Part shown: positions 40,516 to 42,275 of the stretch, piece after piece
How the letters are laid out: each line of letters begins with the position of its first letter
Position numbering within the stretch: the first letter of the stretch is position 1
Assembly: GCA_021129515.1 (NCBI GenBank)
Contig: JAJOLD010000001.1
Location: 321,217 to 363,874, forward strand
Source of the DNA: Minisyncoccota bacterium
GTDB taxonomy: Bacteria > Patescibacteriota > Minisyncoccia > Phycocordibacterales > UBA918
Length of the DNA stretch: 42,658 nucleotides
Reading direction: 5' to 3'
Made by a program: the position numbers and the translations under genes
The notes under the pieces: model-generated
Told to the model about the DNA's origin: nothing
The model's input: only the letters and a program-made list of their open reading frames with translations
The model's database searches: none

Positions 40516-40578
40516 ATCAACACCTCCTGTAGGACAAATATTCTATACCTTATAGCAAAAATAGGTTTGAAAAACAAC

Positions 40579-40599
40579 AAAACCGCCGATGGCGGTTTT
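40579..40599 (-). terminator. intrinsic terminator downstream of tRNA array
   Basis: AAAACCGCC-atc-GGCGGTTTT-GTTGTTTTT on minus strand. Confidence 0.75.
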
Positions 40600-40644
40600 G
40601 TTGCGTAAAAATCAAAGTGCAGCTCCCAAGCATACTTTCCAAAG

Positions 40645-40739
40645 TGCGAGTGCCAGGATTTGAACCTACGACTCATTCGTCTTGTCAGGTAAACAGTGTC
40701 TATACACTGTTTACCGCTCTAACACCTTCGCTACACTGC
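40645..40739 (-). tRNA. tRNA-Val(GAC)-like gene disrupted by a 26-nt hairpin in place of the 5' anticodon-stem strand
   Basis: GC(-)AGTG/CACTCGC acceptor (one nt missing on 5' side), D-arm, loop CTGACAA with GAC anticodon, 3' anticodon strand GACGA but no TCGTC partner; GTAAACAGTG-TATAGA-CACTGTTTAC in its place. Confidence 0.5.
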
Positions 40740-40756
40740 ACAATATAAAATCCTTT

Positions 40757-40814
40757 GTGCAGCTGGTAGGACTCGAACCTGCCTCCTTACAGGAGCTGTA
40801 TACCTTTTGGCTAT
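40757..40814 (-). tRNA. partial/degenerate tRNA (3' half)
   Basis: GCAGGTTCGAGTCCTACCAGCTGCA identical at its 3' end to tRNA-Ile; no matching 5' acceptor strand. Confidence 0.4.
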
Positions 40815-40851
40815 TTTTGTTCGCTTCACTCCAAAAATATCACAAAAGCTT

Positions 40852-40878
40852 CTTAATCAGTTTCCCAAACTGATTAAG
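40852..40878. repeat. perfect 12-bp hairpin within tRNA array
   Basis: CTTAATCAGTTT-CCC-AAACTGATTAAG. Confidence 0.9.
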
Positions 40879-40893
40879 CCTCGTCATTATCAG

Positions 40894-40921
40894 GTGAGAC
40901 AAAGTCTATACTTTGTCTCAC
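40894..40921. repeat. 11-bp hairpin replacing anticodon 5' strand in tRNA-Ile-like fragment
   Basis: GTGAGACAAAG-TCTATA-CTTTGTCTCAC between TCGTCATTATCAG and CGCTCTA. Confidence 0.9.
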
Positions 40922-40956
40922 CGCTCTATCTTTGAAAATTAAAGTAACGTTCAGTG

Positions 40957-41030
40957 TGCAGCTGGTAGGACTCGAACCTACGACCTCGTCATTATCAGTG
41001 ACGCGCTCTAACCACCTGAGCTACAGCTGC
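40957..41030 (-). tRNA. tRNA-Ile(GAT), intact cloverleaf, CCA not encoded
   Basis: GCAGCTG TA GCTCAGGTGGTTAGAGC G CGTCA CTGATAA TGACG AGGTC GTAGG TTCGAGT CCTAC CAGCTGC A. Confidence 0.9.
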
Positions 41031-41106
41031 ACGCTGCACACTACATTATTTAATTTTCAAAGCCCCCACCTGAGCTACAGTCGAACAGACGCCCGAAAGA
41101 TTATCA

Positions 41107-41134
41107 GTAAAACAAAGTATAGACTTTGTTTTAC
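41107..41134. repeat. 11-bp hairpin in third tRNA-like fragment
   Basis: GTAAAACAAAG-TATAGA-CTTTGTTTTAC between TTATCA and CGCTCTAACC. Confidence 0.9.
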
Positions 41135-41308
41135 CGCTCTAACCAACCCTATCGCCTCATAAATATCGGCGATTCCTTCGGACCGGATGAAAAGCAAAAC
41201 TGTTTACTTTTCATAGCCACCGCTGCACAAAGGATTTTACATGGGACTCTATTCCCTCTTTAGCCCGCAAATACTACCAAACTATTCACAATTCATCAAT
41301 AACGATAA

Positions 41309-42234: not shown

Positions 42235-42275
42235 ATACAAAGAAGCCGCGAGCGTAGCTCGCGGCTTCTTTGTAT
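42235..42275. terminator. bidirectional intrinsic terminator between pilin-like CDS and 16S trailer
   Basis: Perfect 19-bp stem ATACAAAGAAGCCGCGAGC-gta-GCTCGCGGCTTCTTTGTAT. Confidence 0.85.

Follow-up and report, generated by a model that had tools for sequence, protein, structure and literature searches.

A tRNA-Ile gene nested within a hairpin-bearing broken copy of itself in a Minisyncoccota bacterium and several relatives

Why should tRNA-like sequences carry perfect hairpins at the place where the 5′ strand of the anticodon stem belongs? The question is raised by a tRNA array in a 42,658-nt stretch of the genome of a Minisyncoccota bacterium of the order Phycocordibacterales (contig JAJOLD010000001.1, positions 321,217 to 363,874). 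We refer to this stretch as the window and use its positions as coordinates; all tRNA units of the array lie on its minus strand. The only recognizable tRNA in the array is tRNA-Ile(GAT) at 40956–41030, called by ARAGORN and by Rfam (RF00005, 74.4 bits). This intact gene proved to occupy the D-loop of a broken copy of tRNA-Ile, the shell, whose halves stand outside a pair of complementary arms on both sides of it. The anticodon stem of the shell has lost its 5′ strand to a perfect palindrome of about 27 nt.

The 5′ arm beside the intact gene (41033–41062, CTTTGAAAATTAAA...) contains a 14-bp perfect complement to the 3′ arm (40930–40943, TTTAATTTTCAAAG), which is paired in the minimum free energy fold. 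Beyond the 5′ arm lies the 5′ half of the shell (41063–41080, CTGTAGCTCAGGTGG), a direct copy of tRNA-Ile nt 5–19 (blastn E 8.6e-5). On the other side, the minus strand continues after the inner arm with the 3′ strand of the shell D-stem (40922–40929, ATAGAGCG), a hairpin (hairpin 2 below), and shell nt 33–47, comprising the anticodon loop and 3′ strand (40879–40893, CTGATAATGACGAGG; 100% identity to the intact gene). These are followed by a GGG-loop palindrome (40852–40878, CTTAATCAGTTTGGGAAACTGATTAAG), which belongs to a dispersed palindrome family, by a structured repeat that we call type A (40783–40850, ..CCAAAAGGTATACAG CTCC TGTAA GGAG), and by shell nt 52–75 from the T-loop to the acceptor 3′ end (40757–40780; 100% identity, blastn E 1e-9). 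The shell acceptor strands, GTGCAGC and GCTGCAC, are prolonged by AAAATCCTTT and AAAGGATTTT, respectively: the outer arm with the acceptor 5′ strand (41220–41238) complements GCTGCAC-AAAGGATTTT (40746–40763), with the acceptor part paired in the fold, and the outer arm′ (AAAGGATTTTA) occupies 40746–40756. The computed fold of the 472-nt nest has an energy of –182 kcal/mol and z = –9.3.

All three hairpins were found where an earlier note on this DNA had placed them: at 40689–40714 (hairpin 1, GTAAACAGTG-TATAGA-CACTGTTTAC), at 40894–40921 (hairpin 2, GTGAGACAAAG-TATAGA-CTTTGTCTCAC, replacing anticodon-stem nt 27–31 of the shell), and at 41107–41134 (hairpin 3, GTAAAACAAAG-TCTATA-CTTTGTTTTAC). 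They contain 11, 12, and 12 consecutive Watson–Crick pairs and 4-nt loops, and the observed stem length was reached in 0 of 20,000 base shuffles of each segment. Each is bounded by GAGCG, the end of the D-stem, and by the anticodon-loop sequence TGAYAA. The pattern GAGCGGT-N-CTGA matched three times in the window, always at these hairpins, against 0.28 matches expected, with 1 of 100 shuffles also giving three. The stems have no wobble pair, and those of units 2 and 3 differ by double changes only; the reported covariation consists of between-copy changes paired in both arms of perfect stems. The reported inversion of the third loop also holds, the loop reading ATAG in units 1 and 2 and CTAT in unit 3 and in a further copy on contig C2.

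The three units carrying these hairpins are not alike. Unit 1 (40644–40741), 3′ of the nest, resembles a tRNA over its full length and has a GAC anticodon loop, though it is not called by ARAGORN or by Rfam at the gathering score. Unit 2 (40879–40929), taken previously for a tRNA-like unit of its own, is not free-standing and forms the 3′ half of the broken tRNA-Ile whose 5′ half lies across the intact gene at 41063–41080. Unit 3 (41090–41148), a tRNA-Ile fragment within the shell 5′ half (GGTTAGAGCG, hairpin, TGATAAT), retains hardly more than the D-stem end and a part of the anticodon loop. ARAGORN called none of the hairpin-bearing units as a tRNA, and they are broken copies next to intact genes, as one of the earlier proposals, decayed tRNAs, had it; an intact tRNA-Val(GAC), which the earlier note had asked to be sought, is present on contig C12. 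Another proposal, an unusual tRNA intron, fails. tRNA introns similarly place extra sequence near the anticodon loop, but their excision restores the tRNA; the hairpins are not introns because nt 27–31 are absent from all three units and the anticodon stem would still lack its 5′ strand after removal. The outer copy of the nest is also interrupted in its D-loop, and the carriers are not the sole genes, given the intact tRNA-Ile(GAT) and tRNA-Val(GAC).

Is the layout peculiar to this genome? We surveyed relatives by a search with the tRNA-Ile gene and by a pattern search and found that members of three other families of the order have the same succession of parts: a 5′ half, an arm, the intact tRNA-Ile, arm′, AGAGCG, a GTRA..TYAC hairpin, and the anticodon loop. 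These genomes, G037, G100, and G259, all share the nested layout, G037 with two concentric shells. The hairpins in the other families (GTGATTGC..GCGATCAC, GTAAATGC..GCGTTTAC, GTAAACATATCT..AGATATGTTTAC, and GTAAAAAGC..GCTTTTTAC) stand directly 3′ of AGAGCG and directly 5′ of CTGATAA, or CTAATAA in the exceptional G259. The perfect nest arms differ in sequence per genome, with lengths of 14, 11, 11, and 13 bp. Among eight hairpins, including one from a tRNA-Leu(CAA) copy, pairs 1, 2, and 4 are invariant (G–C, T–A, A–T), pair 3 is A–T or G–C, and pairs 5–8 vary yet remain paired. The hairpin site lies at or near one fixed tRNA position across copies. The earlier idea that the hairpins form a single family of structured elements sharing a tRNA position is supported by the recurrence of the site and the GTRA..TYAC base in the tRNA-Ile copies of three other families and in the Leu(CAA) copy of this genome, and by the dispersal of a related palindrome family in the genome. 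A related unit is present in G046, a 5′-truncated copy without a hairpin in G038, and an upstream Ile-like copy adjoining an N stretch in G102; several other relatives (e.g., L072, L074, L077, and L085) have an ordinary shell-free tRNA-Ile.

Across the order, 21 of 397 genomes matched the layout pattern, and a reversed control pattern matched about as often; real cases were confirmed in G000 (this genome), G037, G100, and G259, one locus that was inspected (L100) has no tRNA, and the rest were judged only by their lack of a palindrome. Of 286 genomes sampled from the whole phylum, two, both belonging to this order, contain the noncanonical 3′ copy CCTGATAATGAYGAGG; the hairpin loop core AAAGTCTATACTTT was found only in this genome, apart from one non-tRNA match in G001. 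A collection of genomes from all bacteria, in a scan that may omit records near the window, gave two chance matches without tRNAs (Thermococcus and Flavobacteriaceae metagenome-assembled genomes), and viral contigs gave one match to the hairpin pattern, without a tRNA. The layout is real and restricted to the order. Misassembly is unlikely because the layout recurs in three other families, and an artefact or chimeric contig, which the earlier note had allowed for, is extremely improbable: four separate genomes share the layout yet differ in their arm and hairpin sequences. What speaks for an artefact is that the repeats coincide with N stretches at two related loci, L024 (C2:49100-49400) and L148 (G102). 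Related loci may therefore be lost from many assemblies.

Broken self-copies are not confined to tRNA-Ile. The 857-kb genome has about 34 tRNA genes, nearly all single-copy, and pieces of a gene's own tRNA lie within 300 bp of 13 of the 26 testable genes. Such self-pieces accompany 14/44 and 2/12 tRNA genes elsewhere in the order and 2/52, 0/12, 3/13, and 0/10 genes outside it (together 5/87). As a cross-control, we compared tRNAs with the flanks of tRNAs for other amino acids, which gave 19 hits in 954 pairs against 15 in 32 for self. The polarity is strict, with 5′ pieces upstream and 3′ pieces downstream of the intact tRNA: all seven upstream direct pieces of this genome fall within nt 1–25, six beginning at nt 1, while all seven downstream direct pieces begin at nt 33–63, within the 3′ half. 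Perfect arms also flank the tRNAs for Ala (23 bp), Gln(CTG) (17 bp), and Val(GAC) (11 bp) in this genome. Of ten 5′ pieces, four run directly into a perfect hairpin of 9 bp or more, against a background of 6.8% (p = 0.003), and many tRNA leaders here share the order of tRNA nt 1–22, hairpin, and anticodon-arm-like piece. Reverse-complement 3′ pieces also come after terminator-like palindromes.

Individual loci show further variants of these arrangements. Many tRNA genes (L123, L126, L128, L130, L135, L137, and L143) are succeeded by a terminator-like palindrome and then by their own 3′ end, from the T-loop to the acceptor, in reverse complement; a hairpin often separates the T-stem part from the acceptor part. 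The tRNA-Ala gene L138 (G000 C1:174433-174507) has 23-bp and 12-bp perfect inverted arms and lies inside a broken tRNA-Ala, whose T-loop is split by about 310 bp of repeats. The leader of tRNA-Leu(TAA) at L130 consists of two exact 112-bp tandem repeats, each with tRNA nt 1–22, a hairpin, and an anticodon-arm-like hairpin. Simple tandem duplication fits this leader but not the Ile and Ala nests, where the arms differ and, at Ala, the terminator comes after the displaced piece.

The palindromes and repeats of the nest have relatives elsewhere. Palindromes of the AACAGTnnGGGnnACTGTT type gave 13 genome matches with up to two mismatches, against none for a reversed control; a tRNA gene is present at seven of the loci (Leu-CAA, Thr-GGT, Ala, Asn, Ile, Gln, and a Glu cluster), and at most of these the palindrome lies within a broken copy of the respective tRNA. 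The type A repeat, of the form (hairpin)-CAAGACCTTTTG..CAAAAGGTGTACWG-nnnC-TGTAA-Gnnn, has 12 copies in the genome, and its motif, with covarying helices, is found in 39 of 59 related genomes. It often lies between reverse-complement and direct copies of a tRNA 3′ end. Another motif, type B (about GGAGCGATG-stem-TATNCCTAAT-stem-GAACC..GGGCAGGAAGTTCTTGTGAGCGTTAGCGAACTAGAAACTTGACGCC), stands downstream of tRNA genes, e.g., at L127, L130, L135, L137, and L143. Rfam reported only tRNA and rRNA above the gathering score and nothing for the shell, type A, or type B. As a possible driver of type A, we considered the Y1 transposase; PF01797 (IS200-type transposase) is present in 30 of the 59 genomes but does not track the type A counts, G006 and G007 having 10 and 18 motifs and no PF01797, and G053 and G057 the reverse. 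This comparison across genomes covered the type A repeat.

What process could produce such loci? The best-supported reading, to which we assign an even chance, is recurrent self-nesting of tRNA genes, with palindromes formed by template switching and survival filtered by selection. A local copying process would repeatedly place a new tRNA copy inside or beside the old one. As nearly every tRNA gene here is single-copy, only events sparing one intact copy would persist, and broken copies would accumulate, 5′ pieces on the upstream side and 3′ pieces on the downstream side; recurrent insertion or duplication of this kind would account for both the strict polarity and the one surviving intact copy. 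Template switching during replication may create the palindromes, or copy them in and homogenize them, so that the arms change jointly and the loop can flip. Its described footprints are arm homogenization, multiple compensatory changes, and loop inversion (PMC8794818, PMC8604942), and the hairpins studied here have near-perfect arms, paired between-copy changes, and a loop inversion among homologous copies. Since template switching between inverted repeats yields covarying perfect stems and a flipped loop, the stems need no selection at the RNA level. The shells would then be mostly tolerated noncoding debris, probably transcribed together with the tRNA into a single, very stable nested structure. 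Several observations weigh against this account. A mutational origin alone poorly explains why several families share the tRNA position of the palindrome and its GTRA..TYAC base, or why related palindromes turn up in copies of other, unrelated tRNAs; the relatives retrieved include no second genome of the genus and no ancestral or empty site, and the order of events is a deduction; and the conservation of the type A motif next to the shells hints at selection on, or mobility of, at least one component. The fixed site, the common stem base, and the spread to copies of other tRNAs suggest a common palindrome copied between tRNA copies by gene conversion or mobility.

Rather than debris, the shell and hairpins could form a functional structured RNA, in which the nested leader and trailer fold around the tRNA and steer its processing or expression. 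The long arms might offer a duplex to RNase III and the shell acceptor and T-arm a substrate to RNase P; by replacing the anticodon arm, the hairpin would keep the shell itself from acting as a tRNA. The stability of the whole-locus fold, the complementarity of arms and hairpins that is kept while their sequences differ between genomes, the hairpin site and stem base common to several families, and the shared order of so many leaders here all argue for a function. We nevertheless consider it unlikely: equal covariation is obtainable by template switching, several relatives manage with a shell-free tRNA-Ile, and G100 and G259 have a partly disrupted shell acceptor. A related proposal makes the tRNA genes of the order self-rescuing nested elements, in which an arm–tRNA–arm′ unit enters its own D-loop, breaks and functionally replaces the resident copy, a dedicated hairpin disables the old anticodon arm, and the cloverleaf-in-cloverleaf RNA is used in tRNA maturation or control; this we regard as rather improbable.

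Mobility without such a function offers a different account of the same repeats. The palindromes and type A repeats may be tiny nonautonomous elements that target the hairpin loops and junctions of tRNA genes, the intact tRNA being regenerated each time and an insertion persisting when the replacement part is created or carried along. The dispersal of the palindromes, seven at tRNA loci, the wide occurrence of type A in the order, and the starts of most downstream pieces at nt 33 or 52–63, close to the crossover sites of integrases in the anticodon loop and T-loop, are in line with it. We hold this, too, to be doubtful, as no recombinase was identified, PF01797 does not follow type A, viral contigs contain no type A match, and the elements have no conserved ends beyond GTRA..TYAC. 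Far less probable is that the displaced fragments stem from ordinary integrase-driven islands that have since been lost. Fragments of this kind are known to cause misannotation of tRNAs (PMC9897764, PMC4383910), the displaced 3′ pieces start near known crossover regions, and the locus has a regenerated tRNA and a displaced fragment with the same 3′ end. Island loss, however, does not predict upstream 5′ pieces, complementary arms, nesting, or hairpins, and would require independent islands at half of all tRNA genes. Most pieces lie some tens of bases to about 250 bases away, and no island gene or integrase gene intervenes; no open reading frame of at least 80 aa falls wholly within 40680–41240.

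Template-switch hairpins (PMC8794818; PMC8604942) resemble the locus in their perfect stems, paired arm changes, and inverted loops, but in the literature searched they are not reported to act repeatedly at one position of tRNA copies or to make nested genes. Islands in tRNA genes (Islander, PMC4383910) and tRNA fragments (PMC9897764) likewise combine an intact tRNA with a displaced 3′ fragment starting near the anticodon loop or T-loop; the locus differs in its upstream 5′ pieces, inverted pieces, nesting, and hairpins, with no island or integrase between. The palindromes of REP elements (PMC3733652), which go with RAYT (Y1) transposases, are also short and dispersed in intergenic DNA, whereas those found here lie inside tRNA copies and the Y1 transposase does not track type A. 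Variable palindromic stems in a small-genome bacterium are also a feature of the TIGR stem arrays of Tas systems, which occur in Parcubacteria and elsewhere (PMC12045711); we set these aside, as the sequence flanking the stems of the locus is tRNA sequence. No relevant account of tRNA genes that are nested or carry hairpins in these bacteria came up in literature searches, and the nested layout of broken self-copies seems undescribed. tRNA genes are usually held to be compact and stable, and here about half of those of one genome carry ordered self-debris, with the cloverleaf-in-cloverleaf layout and the same disabling hairpin common to several families. If mutational, the loci would allow template switching to be studied in nature across a whole class of genes; if selected or mobile, they would represent a new way to build or parasitize tRNA genes. 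The layout would confuse tRNA annotation in these lineages.

The array is closed by a terminator-like palindrome with a 13-bp stem (40575–40603, minus strand), and a perfect 19-bp palindrome with a 3-nt loop stands at 42235–42275.
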